This document shows, one piece after another, positions 4,151-34,342 of a stretch of DNA of 64,000 nt. Below the pieces are notes generated by a model. The model was not told where the DNA came from. It did not search any database and saw nothing but the letters and a program-made list of their open reading frames with translations. Position 1 is the first letter of the stretch. Every line of letters starts with the position of its first letter. The DNA comes from Bacilli bacterium (GTDB lineage: Bacteria; Bacillota_I; Bacilli_A; ML615J-28; CAG-313). The stretch covers positions 62,001-126,000 of the forward strand of contig JAGBDV010000002.1 in the NCBI GenBank assembly GCA_017937305.1, written 5' to 3'. The position numbers and the translations under genes were made by a program.

Positions 4151-4909
4151 TTATGCAGGGTCTACTTTCTTCCAATCTTTAATATATACTTTTTTAATTT
4201 TCTTTTCTTCACTTCCCCAGTAGTCATAGAAGTCATGACGTTTAAGACGTGCATAAGCAACACTATCTGTTTCTTTTGCAGGTTCTGCATCTTCACTTTC
4301 GGAATTAAACCATCCTAAGAATTCATATCCAGCTACTCTAATTTTAGGAAGGCCTTCTTTTGGAAGACTACTCATAAATGTTCCAGGGATATTATCAATT
4401 GCGTATTTTACGCGATAGCTTTGCCAAAAATGTACTGTTTCAGCTGTATAATAGAAAAGTTTTGATGTATCAACAAGTGCTGCCCAACTTCCTACAAAGA
4501 AGTTATCTGCATAGTTATATGGATCCATACATGTACAACCTTCATCGTTTCTCCACCATGCAAAGAATGTGATTAAGAAGTTAATAAAATCTATATATTT
4601 GTTATTTTTCATACACCAACCAATAAATGTAGTTTCAGGTTCATTTTGTAAAGAACCATCCATTCTAGCTTCTAAGAAGTATTTGTGGAATGCAAATCCA
4701 ATTGCATAACAGTCTTTCATTCCACCTGCAAAAAAGTCTGCAAAGTTAACAAATTCTTCTGCATTATTAATATTATGTGCTTTTAAATCTTCTTCTCCAT
4801 TGTTTGCTTTAATAAAATTATAAAAATCAGTATAGAAACTTTTCTTTAAGCTTTCTTTAGACTCCCATAAGTCTACGTTTAATTCATGGTTAATATATTT
4901 ATAAATCAT
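4151..4909 (-). CDS. Leaderless helical-domain protein with a half InlB B-repeat
   Basis: A 252-residue protein with no signal peptide or membrane segment, rich in Trp, Tyr and Phe (FFAWWRNDEG) and with Cys residues in GCTCMDP. I do not recognise the main body (about 1-190) as a named family. It resembles the insert seen inside B-repeats of the amidase lipoproteins at 14791-18975 and 31430-34342: a DFYNFIKANNG opening is followed by a helical region, a short Pro-Lys linker and then GYEFLGWFNSE, the second half of an InlB B-repeat. It lies between the phosphopantetheinyl transferase and nitroreductase genes with 1-2 base gaps. Function unknown; a cytoplasmic version of a surface-protein module is unusual. 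Confidence 0.6.
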   Translation of the reverse strand: MIYKYINHELNVDLWESKESLKKSFYTDFYNFIKANNGEEDLKAHNINNAEEFVNFADFFAGGMKDCYAIGFAFHKYFLEARMDGSLQNEPETTFIGWCMKNNKYIDFINFLITFFAWWRNDEGCTCMDPYNYADNFFVGSWAALVDTSKLFYYTAETVHFWQSYRVKYAIDNIPGTFMSSLPKEGLPKIRVAGYEFLGWFNSESEDAEPAKETDSVAYARLKRHDFYDYWGSEEKKIKKVYIKDWKKVDPA

Positions 4910-14790: not shown

Positions 14791-17700
14791 ATGAAAAAAC
14801 TTTCTAAATTTTTATTTGTCTTTCTTCTTGGTGCATTATGTTTAATTGCATCATGTAAGAAAGAAATTCAAGAAGTAACTTTTACAAATATTCCAGAATC
14901 AATGTATGTAAATGATTCATTCACAGTGGAATACTCAAAACAAGAGGATGTAACAGCTACATTTGTTAGTAGCAATATTAATGTTGCAACTGTTGAAGGA
15001 GAAAAAGTTACTGCTGTTGCTGCAGGTGAATTTACATTAACTGCAACATTTACTTTAGGAAAAAAGACAAAAGAATATAAACACACAATTACTGTTCTTA
15101 ATGCAGAATTTAATATTAATTATAATTTAAATGAAGGTGTGCTACCTGGTGATGCTCCTAGTAAATATAATGTAAAGAATCTACCTCTTACACTAGTTAA
15201 TCCAACTCGTGAAGGATATATCTTTAGTGGTTGGTATTTAAGTGAAGATTTTAGTGGCAATCAAGTTACTGAAATTGTAAAAGGTTCAATTGGAGAAGTT
15301 AACCTTTATGCAAAATGGGTTGAGGCTCCAGTTTATCTTACTATTACTTATAGTTTAAATAGTGGTAAACTTCCTGATGGTGCTCCTACAGAGTTCGTTA
15401 AAGGTATTGGTGTTAAACTTCCTGTTCCTACACGCGAAGGTTATAACTTCTTAGGTTGGACAAAGACAAAAACTGGACAAACTTATATTTCAGAAATTAG
15501 TGAAACAGAAACTACTAATGTAACAGTTTATGCTCAATGGGAAAAAATTATCTACTATGGTAATATCACATATGAATTAAATGGTGGTACATTACCTGAA
15601 GGTGCTGCTTCTAAATATGAAGAAGGAAAAGCATTTACTCTTCCTATTCCTACACAAGAAGGTTATAAATTCTTAGGATGGTCTAAAGAAGCTGGTTCTA
15701 CTTCTTATATTGAAAAGATTCCTGCAACTCAAAAAGGTGATGTAACTGTTTATGCAAACTGGGAAGAAATTAAAGAACCTAGTGTTGGGGATCCATTCAC
15801 AGTTGAATTTGAACTAAATGGTGGTGCTTGGAGCTGGACAACTGGTACAGTTGTTGATGCTTCTAAAGGAATTGATTCTGTATCTAATTTACCAGAAATC
15901 TTCATGGCTGATTTCTACACTTATTTAGTTGAAAATAATTTACTAAACTCAAGTAAAGTTTCTACAAAGATTCAAGTAAATAACTGGGCTGCATTTAGTG
16001 CAAACAATGGTGACCCTGTTGCATTATACAATACTACTTCAACTGTTAAAACTGGTGCTGCTGATGGTTATAGTGAATTATTCTTTGATAGTATTAATGG
16101 TTATGTTGCTGTTGGTGGATTCTTAGGTACAAGTCCTTATAAAGAAAAATATGCTAATGTTACAAAACACATGATTCAAATGACACTTTATAGATATAGT
16201 ACTGTTCCAGTAACTGATAAAACATTCAAAGCTGGTGCTGGATTTGTTCTTGATGGATATTTCTATGGTACTCAAGGATTACTTGCAAGTTCTAAAGCAA
16301 ATTATCAAGAATTTAATGCTTTACGTGCTTTAATTCCAACTCCAACTGTTGGTTATGATAATAGTACTGCAACTCAAAATACTTATTTAGTATCTGAAGG
16401 TGTTATTGGCACTGAATTAAAACTTGTTGCTCCAGTTAAAGAAGGACATATGTTCTTAGGCTGGTATGATAATGCAGAATTTGCTGGTGAAAAAATTGAA
16501 AGCGTTAAGGCTGGTTGCAAATTATATGCTTGTTGGTTTGATTTAAATGCACCTGCTCCAACATTTAAGATTGAATATGAATTAAATGGTGGAACAAATG
16601 ATGCTGATGCACCTACAAGTTATACTCAAGGTGATGCAGTTGAATTACTTAAACCAACTAGAAGTGGTTATACTTTCCTTGGTTGGTCAACTGATGCTGA
16701 AGGTAATAATATTGTTACAGAAATTGCTGCTACTTCAAAAGGTGATGTAAAATTATATGCTAACTGGGCAGAAGGTGAAGAAGAAATTTACACAATTGAA
16801 TATAAATATTCAGAAGGTAAACTACCTACTTATACTGTTGATTCACTAGAAGCATTTACTGCTTACTTCTTTGAAAAATTCCACGCATGGAGTGGATCTT
16901 CAGCCTCTGTTGAAGACTTTAAGAATGCTGCACTAGGTGCTTGGTCAAGTGGTTCTGATGGTGGTTATAAATTATATCTTCAAAATGCACGTGGACAAGT
17001 TAATGAAAGTTACTTTGTTCATGCAGCTGAAAATATCGAACTATGGACTCCTTGGATGGATGTAATGGATGCTAAAGTTACAGAAATTAATGGTTCACAA
17101 AATGCTTGGGGTTCTAACTATGTAGGTTACTTAAGAATTGCTGCATTCTTCAAACAATCTGCATCATACTGGACAGCAGCTCGTACTGAAGACGTTTATA
17201 AAGGTTTAGCAATTCCTAAAGAATTAGTTAATGAATATAGACCTGGTGATAGTTTTGAATTACTAGAATTAAGTGTTAATGATGGAAGAACATTCCTTGG
17301 TTGGTATGATCAAAATGGAAATAAAGTTGAAAGAATTACTGCAACTTCAAAAGAAGATTTAGTATTAACTGCTAAATGGAGTGAAGCAATTCCTGTTGAA
17401 ACATTTGAAATTACAAATGAAATTACTAAATTATTAAAACTTGGTACTCATCAATTAACTTGGACTATTGGTCCAGATAATGCAACATTCAAGAAACTTA
17501 CATTTGCATCAAGTGATGAAAGTGTATTAACAGTTTCAGAAAATGGTTTAATTGAAGCAATTAATATTGGTACTGCAAAAGTATTAATTACAGTTTACGG
17601 TAATACTTCACTTAACACTGAAATTGAAATTGAAGTTTATGTTGATCCTTATATTGATGGTGAATTCGTTGATGAAACATATGTTGTCGCTGAACAATCA

Positions 17701-18975
17701 ATTCAACTTGCTGCTAAATATGTTGGCAAGAACACAACAAACTTAGTATGGGCTTCTAAAACTCCAGATATTGCATCAGTTGATGAAACAGGTGCTGTTA
17801 CAGGTCATAAAGAAGGTCTTGCAGAAATCGTAGTTTCTGATGCAAATAATGACAAAGTATCATTTACATTCTACGTTACTGTTCTTAAAGAAGCTCCTAC
17901 AGGAATGTTAAAATTATTACTTGATAGTAATAATAAAGAAGTATATACAAAAGATCATTTACTAATCGGTATTAAGATTGGTAGTGATGGTGCTTATTAC
18001 TCTGATATTGTAGGTAGCGTATCTAAATTATTCTTTGAAGATTATGAAGTTCATACAGACTATTATCTTGAAAATCCAAATAATAAATCTAATTATAGTT
18101 CAGGTGGTGTTCAATTTATTACTGTTCACTATGCTGCTGATATGCCATATTCATCTTCTGCAATGTTTAATGGTGGTAAAAACCTTGCTTCTTACAATAA
18201 ATCATGTAACACAAACGGAACTCAAGCTTCATGGCATTATAGTGTTGGTAACGATGGTATTTGGGCTTCTCAAAATGAAGCTTATGCTGCATGGCATGCT
18301 GGTTCAAGTAAAACTATGACATGGACCAACAGTGGTGTTACAACTAGTCAAGTTGGTACAGATGTTTTACCTACAGATGTTAAATTAGGTAGTGATGGAT
18401 ACTTCTATATTAAAGGTGTTAAGACAACTGTTAAGAATACTACTTCAAGTACTAAACTTAATGGTATGGGATTAGCTGTTAAATTAGAAGGTACTACATG
18501 GCAATTAGGTGGCCATTACTATAACTCAACTTATCAATACATTTCTTCTACTGGTGGTAATAATAACTCAATCGGTATGGAAACATCAGTTAGAGAAGGT
18601 TCTGACCTATGGTTAACATGGCAATACACTGCTCAACTTTGTGCTAAACTTCTATTAAAATATAAATTACCTATTCAAAGACTAGTAGGTCACCACTTCT
18701 TCAGTGGTAAATGGTGTCCTCAACCAATGCTAGAAAATGATCTAGAAATTTGGCATGAATTTGTAGAACTTACAAGACAACAAATGGATTTATATGAAAA
18801 CTATGCTGATTATAAATTATCATTTGCAAGTGAAAGTTCTTACTTAAAAGATAATGGTAGAGTAAAAGAATTACCTAATTATCCTGAATGTGTAACTTAT
18901 ACTGTAACTTATACAACAGGATCAACAACTAAGACAATTACATTATCTTCAGTTCTTCCAGGTAACTTAGAATAA
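14791..18975 (+). CDS. Giant surface lipoprotein: Ig-like, InlB B-repeats, BIG2, peptidoglycan amidase
   Basis: A 1394-residue lipoprotein with lipobox LIASC (Cys22). Order: Ig-like domain 25-105; three InlB B-repeats 107-328; a B-repeat interrupted by about 170 extra residues (333-590); an intact B-repeat 590-665; a second interrupted repeat (668-865); two BIG2-type Ig domains 870-1035; an amidase_2 domain about 1080-1320; a C-terminal tail. In the amidase, ITVHYAAD gives one zinc His, SWHYSVGNDG matches the active-site Tyr region, and GHHFFSGKWCPQ gives the second zinc His plus the Lys-x-Cys pair of T7-lysozyme-type N-acetylmuramoyl-L-alanine amidases. It should cut peptidoglycan outside the cell. 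An AAGGAG site lies upstream. Single-gene unit with its own promoter. Confidence 0.88.
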   Translation: MKKLSKFLFVFLLGALCLIASCKKEIQEVTFTNIPESMYVNDSFTVEYSKQEDVTATFVSSNINVATVEGEKVTAVAAGEFTLTATFTLGKKTKEYKHTITVLNAEFNINYNLNEGVLPGDAPSKYNVKNLPLTLVNPTREGYIFSGWYLSEDFSGNQVTEIVKGSIGEVNLYAKWVEAPVYLTITYSLNSGKLPDGAPTEFVKGIGVKLPVPTREGYNFLGWTKTKTGQTYISEISETETTNVTVYAQWEKIIYYGNITYELNGGTLPEGAASKYEEGKAFTLPIPTQEGYKFLGWSKEAGSTSYIEKIPATQKGDVTVYANWEEIKEPSVGDPFTVEFELNGGAWSWTTGTVVDASKGIDSVSNLPEIFMADFYTYLVENNLLNSSKVSTKIQVNNWAAFSANNGDPVALYNTTSTVKTGAADGYSELFFDSINGYVAVGGFLGTSPYKEKYANVTKHMIQMTLYRYSTVPVTDKTFKAGAGFVLDGYFYGTQGLLASSKANYQEFNALRALIPTPTVGYDNSTATQNTYLVSEGVIGTELKLVAPVKEGHMFLGWYDNAEFAGEKIESVKAGCKLYACWFDLNAPAPTFKIEYELNGGTNDADAPTSYTQGDAVELLKPTRSGYTFLGWSTDAEGNNIVTEIAATSKGDVKLYANWAEGEEEIYTIEYKYSEGKLPTYTVDSLEAFTAYFFEKFHAWSGSSASVEDFKNAALGAWSSGSDGGYKLYLQNARGQVNESYFVHAAENIELWTPWMDVMDAKVTEINGSQNAWGSNYVGYLRIAAFFKQSASYWTAARTEDVYKGLAIPKELVNEYRPGDSFELLELSVNDGRTFLGWYDQNGNKVERITATSKEDLVLTAKWSEAIPVETFEITNEITKLLKLGTHQLTWTIGPDNATFKKLTFASSDESVLTVSENGLIEAINIGTAKVLITVYGNTSLNTEIEIEVYVDPYIDGEFVDETYVVAEQSIQLAAKYVGKNTTNLVWASKTPDIASVDETGAVTGHKEGLAEIVVSDANNDKVSFTFYVTVLKEAPTGMLKLLLDSNNKEVYTKDHLLIGIKIGSDGAYYSDIVGSVSKLFFEDYEVHTDYYLENPNNKSNYSSGGVQFITVHYAADMPYSSSAMFNGGKNLASYNKSCNTNGTQASWHYSVGNDGIWASQNEAYAAWHAGSSKTMTWTNSGVTTSQVGTDVLPTDVKLGSDGYFYIKGVKTTVKNTTSSTKLNGMGLAVKLEGTTWQLGGHYYNSTYQYISSTGGNNNSIGMETSVREGSDLWLTWQYTAQLCAKLLLKYKLPIQRLVGHHFFSGKWCPQPMLENDLEIWHEFVELTRQQMDLYENYADYKLSFASESSYLKDNGRVKELPNYPECVTYTVTYTTGSTTKTITLSSVLPGNLE

Positions 18976-25067: not shown

Positions 25068-28000
25068 TTAGTAAATTTTACCAAAGTTACCTTCATTCCA
25101 AATTAATTTTGCAGAATAAGAACCATCCCATTGAGTCCATGATGTTGTACCAGGAATTACACTGTAAAGAGTAATTGTTTTAGATACGCCACCAATAGTA
25201 ACTGTAACATCATAAGAAACAGTTGTAGTAGTCTTAGGAGGATTATAAACACGACCTGTATTATCAACGATATCAGGGTTATTTGATTTCATTGTAATTT
25301 CAGCATCAGCATAATCTTTCATGATAATATAGTTAACTTCAACCATCTTCATAAATTCATCCCAATATTGACCAGCTCTAATTGATTGAGGACAGTTTTT
25401 ACCACTCCATGTATTATGTTCTTTAACTCTATCTAGACCTAAACCATTTCTAATACAAATATCAGCAACTAATTGACCTGTTCTTTGCCATGTGTCATAA
25501 ATATCACCAGATACATTTACACACATTTCAATACCTACTGAGTTATTATTACCACCATAGTTACCGATGGAACCAGCTGCAACTTGAGAGAAATCTACTC
25601 TTAATGGAGCAACATAGTAATAGCCATCAACAATCTTGTAACTAGGACCTAAAGTTGTGAAATGAGCTTTAGAAGGATTTGCAATAGTCTTAGTACCATT
25701 AGAAATTGGAACTGAAATATTTGTTCTTTGACCATCAATTGTTAAGTACCAATTTGAACCATCTTGAACCATATCAAATTCTGGATCCTTTTCACCAGCT
25801 TTAACACCTGTTGTTAACCAAGAGAATGAGTAACCTGTACCATCACCTGCATGGTATGCACGATATTTTTCACGAACTACACCTAAAATTTCATAGTTAC
25901 CTGTTGTATAATGAATTGATGTACCACCAGTTGACATTGATGAGCCAATTGAATGAACTGTACCAGTAAGAGTCGCAGTATCATGAACTGTAACAAATTC
26001 AATTGTATCTTCAGCACGACGTTCTTTATGGTTAGAAGTATCTGTAATAGCATCTGAATTTGCATAATATTGTTCATTTACAACATAAGGAGTAAATAAG
26101 AAGTAGTTAACGCTACCATACATAGAATCATAGTATCTTTGCGTACCATCATTATATAAGCAAACATTACCAGCATCAACTAATGCAAAGTTATATTCAG
26201 AAATTAATTTAACAACTTCATCAACTTTTGTTTCTTCAGCAAGATCAGCAACGATTAATTGGATCTTAACTTTGAAATTAGAACCACTATTATCACTAAC
26301 TGTAATAGTTACTGTACCTTCTTTTAATGCTTTAACATAACCATCTGCATCTACAGTTGCGATTGAAGAATCACTTGAATCAAAAGACATTACAACATTT
26401 TCAGTATTTTTACCTAATGCATGTGCATGAATTTGAACTTCTTCTCCAACACTTAATACACCATCAAATTCATCTTCGAAATCGACTTCAATTGATGGAA
26501 TTGAATAAACTGTAATTGTATAAGTCTTAATAGCGTAACCTACATAATCTCTAATTGTAATTGTACAAGTACCAGCATTATTAGCAGTCATTAAACCACC
26601 TTTTGTTACACTTATAATATCTGGGTCACTAGTTTCAAATAAAACATCTTGGAAGTATGCATCAGTTGGAAGAACTTTTGCAACAATTTGGAATGTATCA
26701 CCTGTTATCATTTCTTCTATAATAGCATCTACTTGCATATCAGTTACTGGAGTTAATTCATTCCATTTAGCTTTTAGTGCCACATCTGCTTTTAAATCAA
26801 ATACTGTTTCGTATTTATTACCTAAAGCATCGTACCAACCATCAAATTCATAACCAAGTTTAAATGGTGTAATTAATTTATCATTTGTAGTTACATCAAT
26901 AGTAATTTTGCTTTCAGTAGGAGCAACATCATAGAATTTTACTTCACCAGGAGTTGTATTATCCATATCAATTGGATTACGGCTAAATGCAACAACTTGA
27001 CCTACTTTAATAGATGTAGTTACGATTGGGTGTAATTGCCCTTTATTGTTGTGTGAGTTAGAAATAGTTAATACATATTCAGCACCAGCAGCCCATGAAG
27101 ATGGACCTGATTGAATAATGTTTTTAACAACATATAAACCACTTACTTCATCTTTACCAATATAAATTCTATCAGAGAATGTAGCACCAGGGTCACATGA
27201 AGTTGTACCTAAGAATACATATTGTGCATAGTTAGTACCAGTCCAGAAAGCACCTTCATTGTAGTTGTAGTTATTAACCGTTAATGTTGCAGCAGGAGTA
27301 CCTAATTTTAAGTAAGACTCACCTGATACACCACCATCTAAATCATATTCAACTACAAATGCACTAATTCGTTGCCAATTTGCATATAGAGTTATATCTT
27401 CTATATTGTCTTTACCAATCGAATCAATATAATCAGTTGAATTAGGTTTAATACTCCAACCAAGGAATGTCCAACCATCACGAACTGGAGTACCTAGTAC
27501 TAATTCAGAACCAGCCATTACTAAATTATCTGCGTTATAAACACCACCATCTAATTCATAAGTAACTTTATAGAATTTAACAGCATCAGCAACATTAATT
27601 GTTGGTTTAGTAGTAAGTGTAGTACCGTAAGATTTGCAATGTTTAAATAAAGATGCATGCTTAGATAAATCTGTAATTACTTGACCATTATTATCTTCAT
27701 AGTAGTTTTCAGCAAATACTGCTAAATGCGGGTTAGTACTTTCTGAATCACCTGTACCATTATATGATTGATAATAGAATTCAGTTGGTAAACCTAAGAA
27801 AATATTGTTTTTAATATCACAAGACCAAGGACCATCTGAGTTGCCTTGACCATTGTTTCTAAAGTAAATACCATTGTAACAATGATCAAAAATGTTTTCT
27901 TCGATTGTAATTACACCACCGTGTTCTTGATAACTCCATGCACCAATCGTACCACTGTTAGCAGTATTAGTCATCAAACCACCACACTTGATGAATTCAT

Positions 28001-31429: not shown

Positions 31430-34342
31430 CTATCTATCTACATAAATACCTTGTACCATTGATGCAAGAGTAATCGATTTACTTTCACCATCTTTTGTAA
31501 ATGTAATTGTATAAGTAACACATGTAGATTGTTCTGGTTGATTTACAACTCTACCATTTTTATTAACGATATCTGGATTATTAGAAGTAATTGATACTTC
31601 ATAACCAGCATACTTAGTTAATAGTTCATATTCTGCTTCAACAAGTTCTAAGAATTCCCACCAAATTTCTAAATCGTTTTCAAGCATTGGTTGAGGACAA
31701 TCTTTTGCAGTATAGAAGTGGTGACCTCTAACTCTTGTAATATCAAGATTTTGTCTTACCATAATATCAGCAACTAGTTGTGCAGTTTTTTGCCATGTCC
31801 ACCAAAGGTCAGAACCTTCATTTACACATGATTCAATACCGATAGAATTTCTATTACCACCTGTTGAACAAATACGTCCTTCATAAACTTGAGTATATGC
31901 CCACCAAGTTGTACCCATGTAATATTCATCACCAACAATCTTGAATGGTAAACTTTGATCATTAATAAATGATTCAGCTTCTCTATTGTAGAAGGCATTA
32001 CCACTATAAGAAGAATTAGATGAGATAGTACCATCAGCATTTAATTTATGATCAGTACCTCTTGAGCTATAATTCCAAGGTTTAGGCATAGGAATTGTAG
32101 TTTTCTTTCCATTAATTTCATAATAGAAGTCATCTGAAATTGTAAAGTTAGGATACATTGGATCAGCAGCGGCTACTTTAACACCAGATGGAATCCATTT
32201 AAATTCACCAACTTGAGCAAGTGCACCAGAATCCCCTGCATGCCATGCACCTTTTGATTCATCCATACAGTAGAATACACCATCATTACCAGTTGTATAG
32301 TGAATTGATGTAGAACCATTTGTTGCGAAGTAACTTGCGTTTGCTGCAGCATTAGCTCCTTTTGCCATATTACCTGTATAGTGAACTGTAATGAATTCAA
32401 TTGAACTCATTGTGCCATATGTAGCTTGAGATTGATTTGATTTATCATAATAAGTTGTATCTTTTTTCAAATTACTATTACCAAATAATTTAGATACACT
32501 TCCTAAAATATCCTTACGATAAGTGTTACCAATATTTAGGTCGTATCTTGTAAATACATTACTTTCATTTGATCTAAGTGCTAAATCTAAAATTCCCTCA
32601 GGTAATGCTTCTAAAACCATTACAACAAATTCAAGTTTTAATTCAGCATTCTTTGGATCTTTTGCAACAATCTTAGCTTCACCAGCATTAATACCAGTTA
32701 CATTACCACTTTCATCTACAGTAGCAATTTCTGGAGTTAATGATTCCCATACAACTTCACTCGTAGATTCATCACGGTAATTTACTATACCATTTAGTTT
32801 AATATTTTCATCGATTAAAACATAAGAATTAGTTTCATATGAACCATCAATATAATCACCAGTATATACTTCTAATTCAAACTTAACATCTAAATCACGA
32901 TTTCCATTTACTTGAACAGTAATAAATGTAATACCATTACTTAAAGCTTTAATAACACCTCTTGCGTTTACTGTTGCAACACTTTCATCACTTGAATAGA
33001 ATTTAACAGTATTATCAGTTACATTTTTAGGACCAATAGTCCATACTAATTGATGAGATGTAAATAATAATAATTCAGAAATTTGATTAATTTCAAATGT
33101 TTCTGCAAATACTTCTTCTTCCCATTTTGCATAGAATACTTTGTTTCCAGTATCAGATGCACCAAGTTTAGTAATAGGGTTACCACTAAATTCTGGATTA
33201 TCATACCAACCTAAAAATTTTAAGCCACTTTCTAATGATAATACAGGAAGAGTTAATTCTTGTCCTGCTTTATATTTAGATGGTACTTCTTCTTTAATTG
33301 GAGTAACATCACACATTTTTTGAATATAATTTGAGAAATACTTTTCGCCTGATGAATTCCATGAAATGAATTGATGCATTCTTACCATTGCGGCATACGT
33401 ATCTGTATAGAAGTTTTGATCTTTACTTACTACTAACATTGCAGTGTTAAATTGTAAGAAGAATTTACTCCATTTTTGATAATATTTAGGAGTATTTAAG
33501 AAATAGTTAGTTTGACCAGTTGTTGAAGGATTATTTTTTAAAGAAGGGTTACGTAATTTAATATCTTCATATGCTTCTAGTTGTTGTTTAATTTTGCTAA
33601 CATAATCATCAAAGCTAGAAGTTTCTCCATTACCTTGTGCCCATTCATATAAATCTTTAAATAATTCATCAACTATTTCTTCACGATTTTTAGCAGCTCT
33701 TGTAGGCCAAATTGCATCTTCTTTATTCGCTTCAAATTTAACTTTATAAACGCCTACTGGAGTTACTTCTACTAGCCATTCTTGAATATCTTCTTCATAT
33801 CCATTACTTGCAGTTGCAGTAATGATTACATCACCTTCATCATTAGCTGTAAATTTATTGTCTTTTACTGATAAAATATTTTCATCAGATGTTTCATATT
33901 TTACTGTTACTTCTTTTTCTGATTGATGTTCAATTGTGAATGTATCACCTATAAAAATGTTTTCTGGTAGTTCTGAATATGTAATAACACCTAATTTAGG
34001 AGCAACTACATTTACTTTTACTGTAGCTGTTGCACCATCATATTCTTTCCATGTTGCAGTGACTTCTGCAGTACCAACTTCTACTGCAACAGCTTTATCA
34101 TCTTTAATTTTAATTACTTTATCATCACTTGATGATAATTTTAAATTTGATAATATATCTTCTTCAGAGTATTTTTTTGCTCCTGTTGCAGATAATTTCA
34201 AATCAACTACATCACCTACTGAAACAGTAATTTCTTCAGTTGTTGCAGAAAGCGAAACTTTCTTTTTAGCACCACAAGAAACTAATGTTACAAATAAGGT
34301 AATTAATACAAAACTTAATAATGCTTTCTTAAAAAACTTCAT
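31430..34342 (-). CDS. Surface lipoprotein: Ig-like, interrupted B-repeat, BIG2, peptidoglycan amidase
   Basis: A 970-residue lipoprotein with lipobox LVSC (Cys23) and a signal nearly identical to the 2065-residue neighbour. Order: two Ig-like domains 25-192; one B-repeat split by a helical, Trp/Tyr-rich insert (about 196-405, with FKDLYEWAQG and later LKFLGWYDNPEF); two BIG2 domains 410-575; amidase_2 about 620-890; a C-terminal tail. Active-site pieces: FITVHYTGN, SIHYTTGNDG and GHHFYTAKDCPQ (zinc His, Lys, Cys). The N-terminal Ig pair is closely similar to that of the 2065-residue protein, so the two look like a tandem duplication with loss or gain of middle domains. It has its own promoter and terminator. 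Confidence 0.88.
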   Translation of the reverse strand: MKFFKKALLSFVLITLFVTLVSCGAKKKVSLSATTEEITVSVGDVVDLKLSATGAKKYSEEDILSNLKLSSSDDKVIKIKDDKAVAVEVGTAEVTATWKEYDGATATVKVNVVAPKLGVITYSELPENIFIGDTFTIEHQSEKEVTVKYETSDENILSVKDNKFTANDEGDVIITATASNGYEEDIQEWLVEVTPVGVYKVKFEANKEDAIWPTRAAKNREEIVDELFKDLYEWAQGNGETSSFDDYVSKIKQQLEAYEDIKLRNPSLKNNPSTTGQTNYFLNTPKYYQKWSKFFLQFNTAMLVVSKDQNFYTDTYAAMVRMHQFISWNSSGEKYFSNYIQKMCDVTPIKEEVPSKYKAGQELTLPVLSLESGLKFLGWYDNPEFSGNPITKLGASDTGNKVFYAKWEEEVFAETFEINQISELLLFTSHQLVWTIGPKNVTDNTVKFYSSDESVATVNARGVIKALSNGITFITVQVNGNRDLDVKFELEVYTGDYIDGSYETNSYVLIDENIKLNGIVNYRDESTSEVVWESLTPEIATVDESGNVTGINAGEAKIVAKDPKNAELKLEFVVMVLEALPEGILDLALRSNESNVFTRYDLNIGNTYRKDILGSVSKLFGNSNLKKDTTYYDKSNQSQATYGTMSSIEFITVHYTGNMAKGANAAANASYFATNGSTSIHYTTGNDGVFYCMDESKGAWHAGDSGALAQVGEFKWIPSGVKVAAADPMYPNFTISDDFYYEINGKKTTIPMPKPWNYSSRGTDHKLNADGTISSNSSYSGNAFYNREAESFINDQSLPFKIVGDEYYMGTTWWAYTQVYEGRICSTGGNRNSIGIESCVNEGSDLWWTWQKTAQLVADIMVRQNLDITRVRGHHFYTAKDCPQPMLENDLEIWWEFLELVEAEYELLTKYAGYEVSITSNNPDIVNKNGRVVNQPEQSTCVTYTITFTKDGESKSITLASMVQGIYVDR

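Follow-up and report, generated by a model that had tools for sequence, protein, structure and literature searches.

Helical domains nested in InlB B-repeats of lipoproteins from one bacterial order, and their exchange between host proteins

InlB B-repeats, or Listeria-Bacteroides repeats (PF09479 Flg_new, TIGR02543; structure 2y5p), occur widely in the surface proteins of bacteria, where they are generally regarded as inert spacers. The known repeat is unbroken and approximately 70 aa in length. Host repeats encoded in the window (here, the whole 64,000-nucleotide stretch of DNA that was analysed) match this type by both sequence and fold, but those that are split hold 130-180 aa after strand 1. 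Cell-wall amidases of the Amidase_2 type (PF01510) are also represented: P0001, P0002 and P0003 each carry a C-terminal copy with the conserved His and Cys.

P0001 (positions 14791-18975, + strand) is a lipoprotein of 1394 aa with a LIASC lipobox within residues 1-45. It has a Big_2-like domain followed by B-repeats (two of which are split, by inserts I1 and I2), two Big_2 domains and the C-terminal amidase (residues 1104-1314; 18100-18732, + strand), which was identified at the sequence level by a profile match to PF01510 and by conserved His/His/His/Cys positions. P0002 (31430-34342, - strand), a lipoprotein of 970 aa, consists of a Big domain, a single B-repeat (split by I3), two Big_2 domains and Amidase_2. 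P0003 (25068-31265, - strand; 2065 aa) has Big_2 domains, B-repeats and the C-terminal Amidase_2; between its B-repeats, two long segments (residues approximately 497-790 and 855-1220) give the impression, from sequence, of right-handed beta-helices (NosD-like), with no Pfam match. PF09479 scores 213.7 bits in P0001 and 33.0 bits in P0002, both above the gathering score (cut-off 27). Judged from their sequences, all three proteins are lipoprotein-like, and their B-repeats and amidases are themselves of kinds already known.

Two repeats of the 1394-aa protein and one of the 970-aa protein had been noted as split, and this is borne out: both halves of each repeat are present, and the ORFs of P0001 and P0002 are real. 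The P0001 repeat that holds I1 spans residues 336-582 (15796-16536, + strand) and the one that holds I2 spans residues 667-863 (16789-17379, + strand), with an unsplit B-repeat between them (residues 592-661; 16564-16773, + strand). The split repeat of P0002 spans residues 199-407 (33122-33748, - strand). The split repeats are 247, 197 and 209 residues in length, respectively; a continuous repeat of approximately 65-70 residues is found only where the repeat is unsplit. Strand 1 is kept in each case (FTVEFELNGG for I1, YTIEYKYSEG for I2 and YKVKFEANKE for I3), and the second half resumes in each with FLGWYD, followed by LYACW (I1), LTAKW (I2) or FYAKW (I3). The PF09479 match on P0002 covers residues 352-406 and starts at profile position 11, which agrees with insertion after approximately position 10.

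I1 (P0001 residues approximately 346-526; 15826-16368, + strand) is a divergent insert of 181 aa that is placed in family C on weak homology. I2 (P0001 residues approximately 675-806; 16813-17208, + strand; 132 aa) and I3 (P0002 residues approximately 207-347; 33302-33724, - strand; 141 aa) both belong to family A and are predicted to have five helices. The insert length originally given, 120-170 residues, holds for I2 and I3 and is exceeded by I1. An opening thought to be shared by the inserts (DFYTYL, FFEKFHAW, LFKDLYEW) proves to be the first helix of the domain, with the pattern F..DFY.[YFW]. The close attributed to them, Pro-x-x-Lys-x-Gly, does not hold up: it is the B-repeat's own PTKEGY.FLGW consensus, it occurs in unsplit repeats too, and it is missing before FLGWYD in I2 and I3. 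The same insertion place in a B-repeat of P0003 is taken by I5, an apparently beta-rich segment (residues 1308-1461; 26883-27344, - strand) with relatives at about 20 loci, most of which are followed by the second half of a B-repeat.

In an AlphaFold model of P0001 residues 327-868 (15 sequences), I2 has pLDDT values of mostly 88-97. Strand 1 of the repeat is followed by a short strand, by helices at 360-375, 381-393, 423-440, 450-462 and 470-478 and then by strands at 481-483, 509-513 and 531-537 (model numbering). The unsplit repeat of this model has its strands in an identical order and lacks the helices. The I3 core modelled alone (pLDDT 90.1, pTM 0.83) has a strand at 9-11, helices at 15-32, 39-51, 80-100, 110-122 and 125-141, and a strand at 143-145. 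The models of I2 and I3 therefore agree in their order of five helices, as the expectation of one fold for all inserts would have it; no such agreement extends to I1, which is of low confidence in the P0001 model (pLDDT below 50; five sequences for I1). The predicted domain is compact (short strand, helices 1-5, short strand) and occupies the loop that follows strand 1 of the B-repeat, its helices lying between strands 1 and 2.

When the P0001 model was compared with the PDB using Foldseek, the B-repeat structure 2y5p was the second best match (E 0.0075, prob 1.00, TMt 0.70), assigning the B-repeat fold to the host repeats; the search also matched the T. denticola sialidase TDE_0471 (10qf). 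I3 alone has no fold match in the PDB by Foldseek (best E 1.4, prob 0.06, TM at most 0.24). Searches with 28 diverse members gave no match in Pfam, NCBIfam or PHROGs (best E-values 0.012, 0.067 and 0.021) and none among PDB chain sequences up to E 1. The value of 0.012 is that of a single member against the NNH5/NACHT helical domain, a candidate that was rejected as below the cut-off. The inserts thus did not divide among different known families; none matched any family in Pfam, NCBIfam, PHROGs or the PDB. We found no description of domains nested in B-repeats in the literature, most subscription papers being outside the reach of the search. Relative to the curated libraries and literature searched, the nested family, its site, its exchange and its cytosolic branch are undescribed.

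The window encodes one further protein of this kind, P0004 (4151-4909, - strand; 252 aa), in which a family B domain (I4; residues approximately 8-185) lies in a decayed B-repeat. Aligning the cores of I2 and I3 gives z = 6.2, a value reached by 0 of 500 shuffles, and together with their models this indicates that they are one domain. In the same shuffle test z is 3.0 for I1/I4 and 1.8 for I3/I4, and direct alignments of I1 with I2 and with I3 give no signal above shuffles. Profiles A and B are collinear over 127 columns (hhalign P = 3.7e-4, with a probability of only 36%). When the search was iterated from family A alone, family B members entered at E-values of 4e-7 to 5e-5 before any inclusion of B, with the exception of surface protein L255, which had already been taken in by the first search. 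After A and B were merged, family C members were among the best excluded sequences (L072 at 1.7e-4, L082 at 4.5e-4 and I1 of P0001 at 0.0057), with matches collinear over much of the domain. These E-values were computed on a small ORF set, and for this reason we call P0004 a member, remote and recognized by profile iteration, and I1 only a probable, very divergent one. The proposal that the three inserts and 4151-4909 belong in one profile accordingly stands for I2, I3 and P0004 and is weak for I1.

Sequences differ down to approximately 20% identity while the helices stay. The shared core comprises F..DFY in helix 1, [YF]F.[NG] before helix 3, Y..K[WY] in helix 3 and N..[QD].[FW] between helices 3 and 4; conserved polar and aromatic residues are F281, W291, N306, Q309 and R321 (P0002 numbering). 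Family B has motifs of its own, WR.DEG and N.x.DFF..SWA..VD..KFFY. There is a substantial minority chance that only I2, I3 and P0004 form one family and that I1 is unrelated, having merely entered the same loop as did I5, which demonstrates that unrelated domains use this slot. The lack of I1 alignments above shuffles, the low-confidence I1 model and an hhalign match limited to the DFYTYL helix all fit such an origin; the collinear, next-best matches of family C to the merged profile argue against it, and we favour the divergent relationship.

Of 395 genomes sampled across the class, 43 belong to the window's order, and 32 of these have the helical family; among the other 352 or so, a single genome has it (G107). 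In a phylum-wide sample of 392 genomes, matches are found within the order only. The G107 copy (G107:C180:10599-11027) lies in a 424-aa protein of a genome from another family of the class, and its 64-67% identity to order members points to transfer or to MAG contamination. G107 apart, the family is restricted to one bacterial order. Within the taxonomic family of the window, family A has 22 copies in 11 of 15 genomes by profile search, family B is found in 13 of 15 (secreted copies counted) and family C in 6 of 15. The window's genome has seven copies, I1 included. Just past the end of the window (contig C12; L310:1398-4859), a 1153-aa lipoprotein resembling the GDPD-containing L066 has B-repeats with two kinds of insert, one of family A and one of I5 type. 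A phage origin was considered and rejected: a viral-contig scan with A4 gave no relative, and BFVD matches are apparently to B-repeats and not to the helical part.

The order has 90 copies, and 83 of them sit at the same place inside a B-repeat, with an F.GW core directly downstream; two of the seven others are cut by contig ends. Surface protein L255 (L255:3040-6354) has two tandem copies with no recognizable B-repeats around them, which may represent a stage that preceded or followed nesting. Several results support the reading of the insert as a genuine nested domain: this frequency, the homologues in the order, the I2 and I3 models and the lack of a known-family match. Domain-bearing hosts are lipoproteins, some of which have Amidase_2, GH18 or GDPD: Amidase_2 of the window's type is present in 19 of 79 domain proteins, and many others have no identified catalytic domain. 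When named genomes were scanned with the amidase, those found were mostly gut MAGs carrying the labels Bacilli, Erysipelotrichaceae, Acholeplasmatales or Anaeroplasma.

Nested domains move between otherwise different host proteins. Between P0001 and its orthologue L071 from the same genus, identity is 84% for the amidase, 89% for I1 and 38% for I2, making I1 the most and I2 the least conserved segment of P0001. The insert in the I2 slot of L071 instead closely resembles the one found in a second, different amidase encoded in its genome, L075, with which it shares 91% of core residues. DNA identity between these two inserts is mostly 92-95% over about 125 codons, compared with mostly 45-65% in the flanks (77% in the FLGWYD half-repeat), and a second assembly shows the same island (L074/L073). 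Among systematically listed insert pairs at or above 55% identity, it is in the L071/L075 group that the insert exceeds its flanks most. In the amidase tree, P0001, L071, L072 and L074 form a clade (support 100/100); this clade is rejected by the insert data (AU p = 1.2e-5) and the L071-L075 insert clade is rejected by the amidase data (AU p = 8e-50), effects that are large, for clades picked after the identities had been seen. Slow evolution of the insert could produce such an island with no exchange, and insert identity does exceed flank identity in most pairs. This explanation is very improbable: third bases at identical residues also agree more often inside the island (0.83) than downstream (0.58; upstream, 0.76), the insert and amidase trees conflict, and the very same slot is the least conserved between P0001 and its orthologue. 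The clear swap counts as a single event in a lineage, shared by two sister genomes; one or two further incongruences exist, with L066 and L068 also conflicting between the insert and amidase trees.

Neither P0004 nor its orthologues have a signal peptide. In one genus, the P0004 orthologue has an N-terminal Dabb stress-response barrel (L088:5502-6518, L091:6235-7251 and L092:5329-6345; PF07876, Pfam E 5.5e-14 for L088). A second family of the order has proteins of 413-425 aa, also with no signal peptide, that are composed of two B-repeats with a nested domain in each (L271:3865-5142, L272:3047-4300, L274:5077-6318 and L275:4748-6004). They begin with the opening residues of strand 1. Their B-repeats are apparently intracellular, and the branch poses the question of what B-repeats do inside cells. 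The P0004 neighbours are a phosphopantetheinyl transferase and a nitroreductase in one genus and a germination protease and a short-chain dehydrogenase in another; they differ between genera, so no function was drawn from them.

From the nesting, the shared fold predicted for I2 and I3, the relationship of P0004, the restriction to one order and the movement between hosts, we infer a recognition role as the most likely one. The full proposal, to which we give roughly even chances, is that one undescribed family of nested five-helix domains provides exchangeable recognition modules on a B-repeat stalk, swapped by repeat recombination and with an intracellular branch. The B-repeat would be both stalk and socket; the helical domain would recognize something outside the cell, such as a wall glycan, a peptide or a surface protein of an adhered or digested cell, and would position the amidase (or GH18 or GDPD) on it. 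Recombination in the flanking repeats would then swap the domain and change the target of the lipoprotein-anchored enzyme, mostly an N-acetylmuramoyl-L-alanine amidase, while the P0004 branch may have been put to a different, intracellular use. Several observations sit poorly with this proposal: many domain proteins have no identified catalytic domain, a conserved branch with no signal peptide, fused to Dabb in one genus, does not fit a purely extracellular role, and I1, at 89% identity, above the amidase, is unlike a variable, changing recognition module. The amidase may act on own or foreign walls, since the window's genome encodes two penicillin-binding transpeptidases (C15:19371-20288 and C23:78463-79185). 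Anaeroplasma is known as wall-less, and a wall-less Anaeroplasma digesting other bacteria was rejected as a scenario: such transpeptidases are also found in a MAG labelled Anaeroplasma bactoclasticum. Either that label or the textbook trait may be unfit for this group.

A purely structural domain, that is, a bulky side branch with no ligand that stiffens or spaces the stalk, would account for its position among Big and B-repeat domains, for helices that persist at approximately 20% identity and for the many hosts with no identified catalytic domain. We consider it unlikely, as exchange of exactly this segment and conservation of F281, W291, N306, Q309 and R321 are hard to explain for a spacer, and the cytosol needs none. 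Somewhat less probable still is an enzymatic origin, in which a present or former enzyme was captured into B-repeats, with the family B motifs as its active site and partial decay in family A. Many residues of family B are invariant, including W-R-x-D-E, the family exists free-standing with no signal peptide, and its domain is found in most genomes of the taxonomic family; however, the free-standing forms are also built inside B-repeats (the 420-aa proteins have two complete ones), the WR.DEG stretch is missing from family A, and Foldseek with I3 matched no enzyme fold in the PDB. Beyond the recognition proposal, it is a tentative idea, less probable than not, that B-repeats in this order offer, in the loop following strand 1, a general plug-in site at which lineage-specific nested domains (helical or I5), with a fold not in the PDB, are recombined between surface enzymes. 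If true, this would be a protein-level cassette system for retargeting enzymes.

The helical family is a defined domain family absent from the curated libraries searched, and its site is a natural one at which a B-repeat tolerates large insertions, which would be useful for protein display. The testable idea is that gut bacteria might vary the targets of their wall-cutting enzymes by swapping a domain, like a drill bit in a chuck. Compared with known Amidase_2 enzymes, the nested domain lies outside the amidase and elsewhere accompanies GH18, GDPD, Dabb or nothing identified. Carbohydrate- and cell-wall-binding modules are alike by hypothesis, in that a non-catalytic module would be exchanged independently of the enzyme. 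Those modules are fused end to end, whereas the domain described here is helical, matches no family or PDB fold and is nested in a repeat: the B-repeats would serve as sockets for a whole domain that is moved between enzymes with its borders kept.
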